From the NCBI GenBank assembly GCA_036703985.1, contig DATNQN010000119.1, forward strand, positions 1 through 64,000: DNA of 64,000 nucleotides, in the 5' to 3' direction. The DNA is from Leptolyngbyaceae cyanobacterium (GTDB lineage Bacteria > Cyanobacteriota > Cyanobacteriia > Cyanobacteriales > Aerosakkonemataceae). Position 1 is the stretch's first letter. Every line of letters begins with the position of its first letter. Of the stretch, positions 2-20,788 are shown piece by piece. A model generated the notes under the pieces. It had not been told where the DNA came from and did not search any database. It saw nothing but the letters and a program-made list of their open reading frames with translations. The translations under genes were made by a program, and so were the position numbers.

Positions 2-172
2 GACTTTGTATCCCAAGAGTTGCGGGCGGCTGAAGATCCGGAATTTGAAACCTTCTATACTAAGAACATTCTTCTGAACGAGGGCATCCGCGCTTGGATG
101 TCTCCGGCGGATCAACCCCACGAACACTTTGTATTCCCTGAAGAAGTATTACCTCGCGGTAACGCTCTCTAA
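2..172 (+). CDS. psbD: Photosystem II D2 protein, C-terminal part (partial)
   Basis: The frame beginning at base 2 gives 56 residues, with the stop at 170-172. It reads [15 protein letters not shown] and ends [12 protein letters not shown], which I recognise as the conserved C-terminus of the photosystem II reaction-centre protein D2. The transmembrane part and the start lie upstream of the window. In cyanobacteria one psbD copy overlaps psbC. Here a strong hairpin terminator follows directly and no psbC start is seen, so this is probably the separate, single-gene copy (psbD2 type). That last point is inference. The identity is secure from the C-terminal sequence. Confidence 0.95.
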
Positions 173-262: not shown

Positions 263-320
263 CATAAAAGCTGCCAACTTTTTAATTGGTGTGATATCTT
301 GGGAAGAGTAAAAACCAGCG

Positions 321-384
321 AGAGTTAACTACTCTCCTTGTTTGAGAAAAAGTCCGCTCAGGCAACAAGGAGGTGATGCCCATG
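321..384 (+). promoter_or_regulatory. Candidate translational switch: hairpin sequestering a strong Shine-Dalgarno
   Basis: CTCCTTGTT (334-342) is perfectly complementary to AACAAGGAG (364-372). Inside it TGAG (343-346) pairs with CTCA (357-360). The downstream arm contains the core of an almost perfect anti-16S sequence, AAGGAGGTGAT (367-377), eight bases before the ATG at 382. Folding would therefore hide the ribosome binding site. An alternative hairpin, AGAGT (321-325) with ACTCT (331-335), uses part of the same upstream arm and would free the Shine-Dalgarno. This competing-hairpin layout is what riboswitch or thermometer leaders look like. I do not recognise a known Rfam class, so the regulatory role is inference. 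Confidence 0.5.
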
Positions 385-453
385 CAAGATAGTAGTAAAC
401 GTATGGGTCATCAGGTTGAATTAAACTGGCTGCGTGCCGGGGCTGTTCTCTAA
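382..453 (+). CDS. Putative 23-residue micropeptide or leader peptide
   Basis: An ATG preceded by an unusually strong Shine-Dalgarno (AAGGAGGTGAT, with 8 bases between AGGAGG and ATG) opens a 23-codon frame, beginning MQDSSKRMGHQ and ending WLRAGAVL, with stop TAA at 451-453. There is no transmembrane segment and no motif I know. The stop codon forms the first bases of a long downstream hairpin, so translation to the end would affect folding of the following RNA. It could be a real small protein, a leader peptide acting in cis, or part of a non-coding RNA in which the ORF is accidental. The strength and spacing of the ribosome binding site favour translation. Confidence 0.45.
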   Translation: MQDSSKRMGHQVELNWLRAGAVL

Positions 454-528
454 CAGTTACTCTTCAGTTCCTAAGGGAACCGAAAATAACTGTTACCTGC
501 TGGGCAGGGTTAGAGTTCCTCCCGGCAG
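451..528 (+). ncRNA. Two consecutive stable hairpins downstream of the micropeptide ORF
   Basis: TAACAGTTA (451-459) pairs perfectly with TAACTGTTA (487-495), with an inner helix GTTCC (467-471)/GGAAC (476-480). A second hairpin follows at once: CTGCTGGG (497-504) with CCCGGCAG (521-528), one G-U pair. Neither is followed by a T-run, so they are not simple terminators. Together with the upstream switch-like hairpins they suggest a folded RNA of about 200-250 nt. I cannot name the family. Confidence 0.4.
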
Positions 529-556
529 TCAAGTTTCAATCTGAAGACCCGCTAGA

Positions 557-610
557 CCGCTCTCATTAATAGTGACAAAATTTATATTCGGTCACTATTA
601 ATGAGAGCGG
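557..610. repeat. Perfect 20-bp inverted repeat with 14-base loop
   Basis: CCGCTCTCATTAATAGTGAC (557-576) is followed after 14 bases by its exact reverse complement (591-610). The arms are longer than a usual terminator and no clear T-run follows. It may be a bidirectional terminator or a short palindromic mobile repeat. The remaining stretch to 840 is AT-rich and I see no gene in it; it probably holds promoter sequence for the downstream genes. Confidence 0.85.
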
Positions 611-840
611 ATAGTTTTATAAAAAGAAAATTTTGTCAAGATTATTTGAAAAAAGGTCGAAATAAAGAAAAAACATTTTATTTCGACAATAGGAATTATT
701 TTAATTAGGTGAAAGCCGAGTAAATTTGTTAATGTATAGTTAACTTCAATTCTCAGTCGCCGTTGCTATATCGATCGACATGGCTAACGAGTGTTTCAAC
801 TTATTTTTAGATCGCTCTCGATTCAATAGGAGGTAAACCT

Positions 841-1254: not shown

Positions 1255-3225
1255 ATGTCTAAGATGTTGTGGAAATCATTACTATTTAGTCCCGCAATAC
1301 TGGGAGCTAGCCTAGTATTGAGTTCTGGAGCAATTGCCACTGAAAACCAAGCAAATGCCGAAGTAACTCAACCCCAAGCAGTAGTAACTCCTAATCTAGA
1401 AGCTCTGTCAGTCAGTTCGGAAAAGACAGAAACCTTAAATTGGGACAAGCCTTTAGCGGAAACTGCTACTTCAGGGCTAAAAACATTTGCTGACAAAGCA
1501 GAAAGCCCTACAGGTTTATCTCGGAAAAATTCTGAAAATGCGATCGCTCAGGCAATTCCATCTAACAATCAGCCGACGATCGATCAACTAATGAGATATG
1601 GTAGCGAAGGCTCTACCGGTAAAGGCCAAGTTACCTCAGTATCTCAACTGCGGGACGTACAACCGACTGACTGGGCATTCCAAGCACTGCAATCCTTGGT
1701 AGAGCGCTACGGTTGTATTGAAGGTTATCCCGATCGTACCTATCGAGGCAACCGAGCATTAACCCGTTATGAATTTGCTGCTGGCTTAAATGCCTGTTTA
1801 GATCGGATTCAAGAATTAATTGCTGCTAGTGGTGGACAAACAGGCGGCGGTAGTGGAGTTACCAGAGAAGATTTAGCTACTCTGCAACGCCTGCAAGAAG
1901 AATTTGCTAGCGAACTAGCTACCTTGAGAGGTCGCGTAGATGCCCTAGAAGCACGCACCGCTCGACTGGAAGCCCAGCAATTCTCTACAACCACCAAACT
2001 GCGTGGAGAAGCCATATTTGCGCTGGCTGACGTATTTGGTGGCGATAACCTCAACATTGACGATGACAACAACACCGTCTTCCAAGATAGGGTTCGTTTA
2101 GAACTGCAAACCAGCTTTACCGGTAAAGACATCCTGCATACCCGTTTAGCAGCTGGTAACGCCCTTGCCTTTAATAACTTCCCTGGAGATCCGATTGCGG
2201 GTACGACCAGAGAAGGAACTCTGCAATATTTCCTTGGTAGCACGGGGAATAACAATGTCGTTCTAGACTGGTTAGCTTACGAGTTCCCCTTATTTGGTAA
2301 CTCGCGCGTTTATATTGCCGCAACAGGTGGTTTGCACGGTGACTATGCTGATGTTTCCCACCCATACTTCTACGATGGAGACGGCGGTAACGGTGCCATT
2401 TCAGCGTTCGCCCAGCAAAGCCCCATCTACCGGATTGGAGGTGGTGCTGGTGCAGCAATTAGCTTTGGCTTCGGACGGGGCGGTAGCTTCTTCAAGCCAA
2501 GTTCCTTGACAGTAGGTTACTTAGCAGGCGGTTCCGGTATCGATCGTCGCGGTAACAGCCCTACTGGTGCTAACAGTCCGCTAGCTGAAAACGGTTTGTT
2601 TGATGGTAACTATGCCGCCTTAGGTCAGCTGAATTTTAATATCAGCAACCGCTTTGGCGTAGCTTTAACCTACGTTCACGGTTACCACAACGCAGGCAGC
2701 GACATCTTTGATGCTGGTGCAGGTGCCCAGTTTAGCGACGGTACTTATGTTGGTGGTGGCGGTGTTGTCGGTACGAGTTTGGCCAACTTGCCATCTTCTT
2801 TACTCCCCGATGGAGATTTAAGACCCACAGTAACCAACTCCTACGGTGCCTCGGCAGCATTCCGCGTCAGCCGTAATTTCTCTATTAGTGGTTGGGCTAC
2901 TCGCACTGACGCTACTGTATTAGGCCGTGGAGATGCTACCATTTGGAGCTACGGACTTGGTATTGCCGTTCCCAACTTAGGCCGAGAAGGTAACGTTTTG
3001 GGTCTGTTTGCAGGGGCAGAACCTCACTTAACCGACACTGATTTGCCAGCAGGAAGCCGAGATTTTTCCGATGATATCCCCTGGCATATCGAAGGGTTCT
3101 ACAAGTTGCAACTGACCGATAACATCTCAGTGACACCTGGAGTAATCTGGTTAATGTCTCCCAACCAAAACAGCAATAACGATGATATTTTCATCGGTAC
3201 TCTCAGAACTACTTTCACCTTCTAA
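1255..3225 (+). CDS. SLH-domain OprB-family iron-uptake porin
   Basis: An outer-membrane channel of the cyanobacterial iron uptake porin type. From the ATG at 1255 (Shine-Dalgarno AGAAGAGGAAAA directly before it) it has 656 residues; an in-frame ATG at 1240 lacks that spacing. An N-terminal signal peptide (MSKMLWKSLLFSPAILGASL) precedes a variable linker. A single S-layer-homology domain follows at about residues 125-190 (containing DVQPTDWAFQALQSLVERY and GYPDRTYRGNRALTRYEFA). Then come a coiled coil (LATLQRLQEEFASELATLRG) and an OprB-type beta-barrel to the C-terminal Phe, the usual outer-membrane sorting residue (ends LRTTFTF). The SLH domain anchors to peptidoglycan-linked polymer. The length is normal for the family. 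A terminator follows. Confidence 0.93.
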   Translation: MSKMLWKSLLFSPAILGASLVLSSGAIATENQANAEVTQPQAVVTPNLEALSVSSEKTETLNWDKPLAETATSGLKTFADKAESPTGLSRKNSENAIAQAIPSNNQPTIDQLMRYGSEGSTGKGQVTSVSQLRDVQPTDWAFQALQSLVERYGCIEGYPDRTYRGNRALTRYEFAAGLNACLDRIQELIAASGGQTGGGSGVTREDLATLQRLQEEFASELATLRGRVDALEARTARLEAQQFSTTTKLRGEAIFALADVFGGDNLNIDDDNNTVFQDRVRLELQTSFTGKDILHTRLAAGNALAFNNFPGDPIAGTTREGTLQYFLGSTGNNNVVLDWLAYEFPLFGNSRVYIAATGGLHGDYADVSHPYFYDGDGGNGAISAFAQQSPIYRIGGGAGAAISFGFGRGGSFFKPSSLTVGYLAGGSGIDRRGNSPTGANSPLAENGLFDGNYAALGQLNFNISNRFGVALTYVHGYHNAGSDIFDAGAGAQFSDGTYVGGGGVVGTSLANLPSSLLPDGDLRPTVTNSYGASAAFRVSRNFSISGWATRTDATVLGRGDATIWSYGLGIAVPNLGREGNVLGLFAGAEPHLTDTDLPAGSRDFSDDIPWHIEGFYKLQLTDNISVTPGVIWLMSPNQNSNNDDIFIGTLRTTFTF

Positions 3226-20376: not shown

Positions 20377-20463
20377 GGAGAGGTGGCAGAGTGGTCGAAT
20401 GCGCTCGACTTGAAATCGAGTGTGGCAGAGATGTCACCGTGGGTTCAAATCCCACCCTCTCCG
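20377..20463 (+). tRNA. tRNA-Ser (anticodon UGA)
   Basis: Acceptor GGAGAGG pairs with CCTCTCC and is followed by discriminator G. The anticodon arm CTCGA-CTTGAAA-TCGAG gives anticodon TGA at 20411-20413. A long variable arm and GGGTTCAAATCCC T-arm fit a class II serine tRNA. CCA is not encoded. Confidence 0.96.
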
Positions 20464-20788
20464 TTGAAGTTTTAGATGTAGTCGTACTTGTACGTTCGCA
20501 AATTAGTGTCGTTTTTAGGTTACTTTTTGACTTTTCAACCCACCCCTGATTGGGATGGTCGTTGAAACCGCGTCGGCTGAAGCAGTTACTTAACCTGGAT
20601 TCTAGAGGATTTTTCGTGAACCTCTAAAATTGTTGCGTTATCTCTGATTTAAACAGAGGAGCAACTATCCCACGTCAACGAATTTTATGGTCGATGCAGC
20701 TTCTCTTGCCCCAAACATAAGCCAGCCAACGCTTTGCGACACTTTATTCTTTTATTCTCTCATCAAAGTGATGGAAGAGCGGTATCTA
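20464..20788. other. Hairpin-rich gene-free interval after tRNA-Ser
   Basis: Contains TAGAGG/CCTCTA (about 20603-20628) and GTTGC...GCAAC enclosing CTCTG/CAGAG (about 20632-20665). Near 20756 a segment CTCTCATCAAAGTGATGGAAG resembles the end of the MITE at 16340-16369. It may be the remains of a mobile element next to the tRNA; I find no intact gene. Confidence 0.4.

Follow-up and report, generated by a model that had tools for sequence, protein, structure and literature searches.

Dual-function small RNAs such as SgrS/SgrT and RNAIII/hld combine an independent RNA and a regulatory-type fold with a short translated ORF, and in SgrS the coding and pairing regions are largely separate. Among cyanobacterial RNAs, Sye_sRNA1 was described in 2018 from Synechococcus elongatus UTEX 2973, where it is more abundant than any other sRNA; according to the main text of that report it is about 200 nt long, has its own transcription start (1,559,116 in UTEX 2973) and a conserved secondary structure, is encoded downstream of psbD or cobB, is reduced at the transcript level by high light, and has 53 homologues spread widely in cyanobacteria, including those reported in Anabaena 7120, PCC 7942, Synechocystis 6803 (TU475) and 6714 (TU2045) (PMC6091082). 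Marine picocyanobacteria possess Yfr103, a very abundant structured noncoding RNA of 290-328 nt with seven paralogues in CC9605 (PMC5069720). Searches on gene and locus names found nothing on the RNA considered here beyond PMC6091082, and papers on Norf4, Yfr2 and Yfr6 do not name the locus.

The window, a 64,000-nucleotide stretch of contig DATNQN010000119.1 from a Leptolyngbyaceae cyanobacterium, begins inside psbD, whose 3' end (2..172; all features given here are on the + strand) is near-identical to the C terminus of psbD at locus L216, from an S. elongatus-like genome. A covariance model, R1, built from 32 diverse sequences, gives the element downstream of psbD at L216 a score of 91 bits; because the gene order there (psbD-RNA-phhB-porin) fits the published locus, the element that follows psbD in the window is treated as a Sye_sRNA1 homologue (PMC6091082, as far as its main text describes the locus). 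The original prediction had recognized at 321-528 a structured leader with a sequestered Shine-Dalgarno (SD) sequence ahead of a 23-codon ORF, and had considered it a cis-acting switch, a thermometer or a dual-function RNA of no known family. The object stands, but that interval is too short: it leaves out the 3' strand of a long-range helix (535-550) and the terminator (552-618). Its novelty holds with respect to Rfam 15, in which neither the window RNA nor its distant homologues have a match at the gathering score, but not with respect to the literature, in which a homologue has been published as Sye_sRNA1. The best match, to the FMN riboswitch, reaches 19.1 bits where the cut-off is 66.2, and was taken as chance. 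The best explanation, to which we would give about an even chance, is that the locus encodes a stand-alone cyanobacterial sRNA of the Sye_sRNA1 type that would also be a mini-mRNA, its coding sequence serving as a helix arm and making translation and folding mutually exclusive.

The extent of the unit is predicted from conserved signals at its two ends. An extended -10 promoter element, TGTGATATCTT (290..300), places the putative transcription start at ~306-308; TGTGNTANNNT is found in 42 of 58 non-redundant homologues, nearly always 50-100 nt upstream of the SD, compared with 0.42 occurrences expected after shuffling. At the other end, a terminator-like hairpin with a conserved GA/A internal loop (CTAGACCGCTCTC...GAGAGCGGATAGTTTT, 552..618) is conserved in homologues: the unit ends in a GCGGATAG-T-run hairpin in 153 of 157 unique homologues (counted as matches to GCGGATAGTTTTT with up to three mismatches), and when homologous loci are read directly, conservation extends as far as the terminator at 618. 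From the conserved extended -10 and the terminator hairpin, an RNA running from ~307 to ~618 is therefore predicted, with both end positions estimated, as a single transcription unit independent of its neighbours in the manner of dual-function sRNAs. In order, this unit comprises the -10 element, the SD and ORF (382-453), two nested helices (405-420/535-550 and 436-442/520-526), a variable domain and the terminator, and the predicted product is a structured RNA of ~310 bases present across most cyanobacteria. The terminator stem keeps both its sequence and its internal loop phylum-wide, an unusual degree of conservation for a plain terminator; picocyanobacterial terminators have a similar asymmetric loop.

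A DNA search with positions 301-540 finds a match in 57 of 60 related genomes, and by this search and by R1 the source genome has a single copy. R1 matches 123 of 386 genomes of the phylum. In the order of the source genome it matches 97 of the 104 other genomes sampled, and it also has matches in several other families. Scanning one genome from each of 84,980 species for a pattern yields at least 117 stretches; among the matches listed, all are cyanobacterial, from Thermosynechococcus and Acaryochloris to Trichodesmium and Nostoc. The phages and plasmids searched have no match to the RNA, and a weak match in G132, from a distant family, was taken as a chance SD plus start. In the picocyanobacterial family f41, R1 gives at best weak matches (E about 0.001 to 0.9), and of the 17 genomes with any R1 match, 15 have it on a locus that BLAST finds conserved in 72 of 121 genomes of the family; in one more genome, G350, the match falls on a locus that reads the same. 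At this locus an SD precedes an ATG or GTG start and 17 codons (typically MSxSCxxQGLLIAENAG) closed by TGA; a helix (GGGTCTGCTGATCGCGGAGAAC/GGTTCCGCG...AGCGGACCC) and a terminator follow. The locus is usually present once per genome, rarely twice. It is likely to be homologous to the window RNA, on an argument from layout, because the neighbouring genes differ. The shorter probable relative with its 17-codon ORF, seen at 1499-1690 of L231 and in 71 further picocyanobacterial genomes, is not in Rfam.

That the RNA is structured, as first proposed, is borne out by folding energies far beyond chance: the MFE of 301-540 is -86.6 kcal/mol (z -4.6 against shuffles), and that of the whole unit (305-616) is -127.2 kcal/mol (z -8.15, with none of 100 shuffles as good). 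Two nested long-range helices, predicted from strong covariation and supported by compensated changes, organize the fold. The outer helix P2 pairs 405..420, inside the ORF, with 535..550, and is present in the MFE structure of 305-616. The inner helix P3 pairs 436..442, also inside the ORF, with 520..526; it is supported by covariation and a 59-sequence count, with 98.2% of cells paired and three pairs showing compensated changes. An extension of P3, P3b (448-452/511-515), is weaker than P2 and P3, with 80% of cells paired and one-sided changes only, none of them compensated. For P2, P3 and P3b together, 90.6% of cells are paired and 57 double changes are counted versus 19.7 in shuffled alignments (0 of 500 as high), a pairing signal that strand sliding abolishes. 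Enclosed by these helices is a variable domain (451..510), which by folding is here mainly the hairpin 451-459/487-495 and ranges from 17 to 96 nt across homologues. The hairpin GATGCCCATG/CATGGGTCATC over the SD and AUG and a local CCGGC/GCCGG hairpin were tried and set aside, being 89% paired with little covariation beyond shuffles; they are possible alternatives to P2 and P3.

The 23-codon ORF (MQDSSKRMGHQVELNWLRAGAVL plus TAA, 382..453) is as originally read: ATG at 382, TAA at 451-453 inside the hairpin TAACAGTTA/TAACTGTTA, and an SD, AAGGAGGTGAT (367..377), that matches the 16S tail perfectly over 11 bases and contains a GGAGGTG invariant in the 32-sequence alignment. The frame is unbroken in all 157 unique homologues, with 23 codons in 153 of them and 24 in 4, and the stop codon interchanges among TAA, TAG and TGA. 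In three loci (L032, L044 and L142) the stop is shifted by one codon and still in frame, another (L019) has an in-frame 3-base insertion, and distant families (L220-L222, translated by eye) have indels in multiples of three and still end in LCAGAVL*; at L217 and L219, also translated by eye, the residues differ, the frame is open and the stop is near the same place. Column-shuffled alignments lead one to expect about five sequences with in-frame stops, and none is seen; the other two frames contain stops in 101 of 139 and 139 of 139 sequences. In codons 18-23, 50 of 71 nearest-neighbour changes are synonymous versus 31% expected (p 7e-12, optimistic, like the other p values, because the sequences are related), and codons 9-22 of the other two frames show no synonymous excess. 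Judged by this evolutionary pattern, the ORF looks translated.

The same region also bears the marks of constraint on the RNA. Codons 2-8 of the true frame show no synonymous bias (0.23 vs 0.18, p 0.13), so that protein-level conservation does not extend to much of the peptide. In S. elongatus-like and Thermosynechococcus-like genomes the ORF ends after codon 17, the conserved C terminus being lost and the RNA kept. The AGT AGT codons (391-396, codons 4-5) are nearly invariant; this nucleotide conservation goes beyond what serine requires and suggests a signal in the RNA itself, within a stretch that is otherwise unpaired. It is thus conceivable, if on balance unlikely, that the molecule is an untranslated sRNA with a purely regulatory or structural role, its SD and ORF being by-products of RNA constraint, or its SD holding the 30S subunit as a ribosome decoy. 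Such an RNA would agree with the publication of its homologue as an sRNA (PMC6091082, main text), with the strong covariation, with the unbiased N-terminal codons and with the conservation of AGTAGTA as nucleotides, but it would not predict in-frame indels, in-frame shifts of the stop, ATG/GTG interchange or the synonymous bias of the last six codons.

The converse proposal, improbable in our estimation, is that the transcript is mainly the mRNA of a micropeptide, which would be its product, with the helices as stabilizing structure. The perfect SD, the phylum-wide frame and the C-terminal synonymous bias are what such an mRNA would have, but many residues vary freely, some lineages have dropped the C terminus, and a simple mRNA would not usually have covarying long-range helices threaded through its codons.

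The neighbours bear on a further proposal, that the RNA is a cis-acting leader or attenuator of a porin gene, in which translation of the ORF would set termination at 552-618 versus read-through. An OprB/SLH porin (1255..3225; Pfam PF04966, E 1.6e-59, and PF00395) follows in the window, and 42 loci have a porin of this type downstream in the same orientation; the layout is that of a leader peptide, and in the fold model translation would open P2 beside the terminator. Set against this, the distance from RNA to porin ORF ranges from about 120 to >1000 nt, phhB (pterin-4a-carbinolamine dehydratase) often intervenes, one locus (L030, read by eye) has a cysK-like start downstream instead, picocyanobacterial loci have unrelated neighbours, and P2 and the terminator have no bases in common. 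With both the downstream gene and its distance varying, where an attenuator would always directly precede the gene it regulates, this proposal is slightly less probable still than that of a micropeptide mRNA. Upstream, psbD is present at 31 of 60 loci, and many of the remaining loci end at a contig edge; a cobB/CbiA gene takes this place in some, as at L038 (CbiA/GATase_3, cobB-like). The contigs of many relatives also end near psbD, which is what one would expect if copies of this gene disrupt assembly. Within its long leader the porin gene has a 115-aa ORF (841-1188) with a strong SD (AGGAGGTAAACCTATGG) and no Pfam match; this ORF may be a gene missed in annotation or may belong to the leader as such. 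Farther along the window (20377-20568), a single CRISPR-DR15 repeat match lies no more than 70 bases after a tRNA.

Upstream of the ORF, the features on which the original prediction built its switch can be read directly in the sequence: CTCCTTGTT (334-342) is exactly complementary to AACAAGGAG (364-372), forming a helix that covers the SD (334..372), and a 5' hairpin AGAGT/ACTCT (321-325/331-335, within 321..335) overlaps it at 334-335. Among 155 unique homologues, however, the SD pairs upstream with a mean probability of 0.505, and shuffling the sequence upstream still gives 0.480 (Wilcoxon p 0.19), so the SD-sequestering helix is rejected as a conserved feature and looks like a local, window-specific feature of the source genome. 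An SD-sequestering switch or thermometer is very improbable, despite the exact 9-bp helix and its presence in the MFE structures of 301-540 and 305-616, because conservation of that helix does not exceed chance. The outcome named in advance as refuting the original prediction, that neither peptide nor pairing is conserved in relatives, is not what is seen: the reading frame is kept and so is pairing, though the pairing is another than the one named. Of the roles first suggested it is the dual-function RNA that the evidence favours.

For a dual-function RNA of this kind, the relation between its two functions may follow from its anatomy: the ORF codons from 8 onward are the 5' strands of P2 and P3, and translation and folding are therefore incompatible. 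When the ORF region (365-453) is barred from pairing in the fold model, P2 and P3 are lost and the energy rises from -126 to -88 kcal/mol. The mini-ORF would be translated from its strong SD, and the translating ribosome would open P2 and P3, so that the ribosome-engaged, unfolded state would be a peptide-making mini-mRNA, and the ribosome-free, folded state would act, or be stabilized, as an sRNA. An RNA with two such states would thereby report translation activity, and we infer that the incompatibility may be put to regulatory use. A bolder extension, which is speculative and rather doubtful, is that this phylum-wide, very abundant RNA is a translation sensor, in which ribosome traffic sets the balance between mini-mRNA and folded regulator from picocyanobacteria to filamentous cyanobacteria.

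The window RNA shares with Sye_sRNA1 its position downstream of psbD or cobB, a transcription start of its own (here predicted), its conserved structure and its wide cyanobacterial occurrence; it differs in its predicted length of ~310 nt rather than ~200 nt, in its conserved ORF and in its likely picocyanobacterial relative (PMC6091082). The main text of PMC6091082 mentions no small protein for Sye_sRNA1. A probably translated, conserved mini-ORF within the fold offers a concrete, testable handle on a very abundant sRNA, and with R1 a covariance model is already at hand for this family, which is absent from Rfam. Yfr103, known here by its published description, is like Sye_sRNA1 a very abundant structured RNA; the picocyanobacterial element found here is shorter than the 290-328 nt of that multi-copy RNA and usually has one copy per genome. 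With tmRNA, the window RNA has in common a structured RNA and an internal short reading frame, but it uses an SD and AUG and has no match to RF00023; the genome's own tmRNA is on another contig (123 bits). If its proposed nature is correct, the RNA would be among the most widespread dual-function RNAs. As in SgrS/SgrT and RNAIII/hld, an independent RNA with a regulatory-type fold contains a short ORF, here predicted to be translated; unlike in SgrS, the coding sequence itself would be one strand of the main helices.
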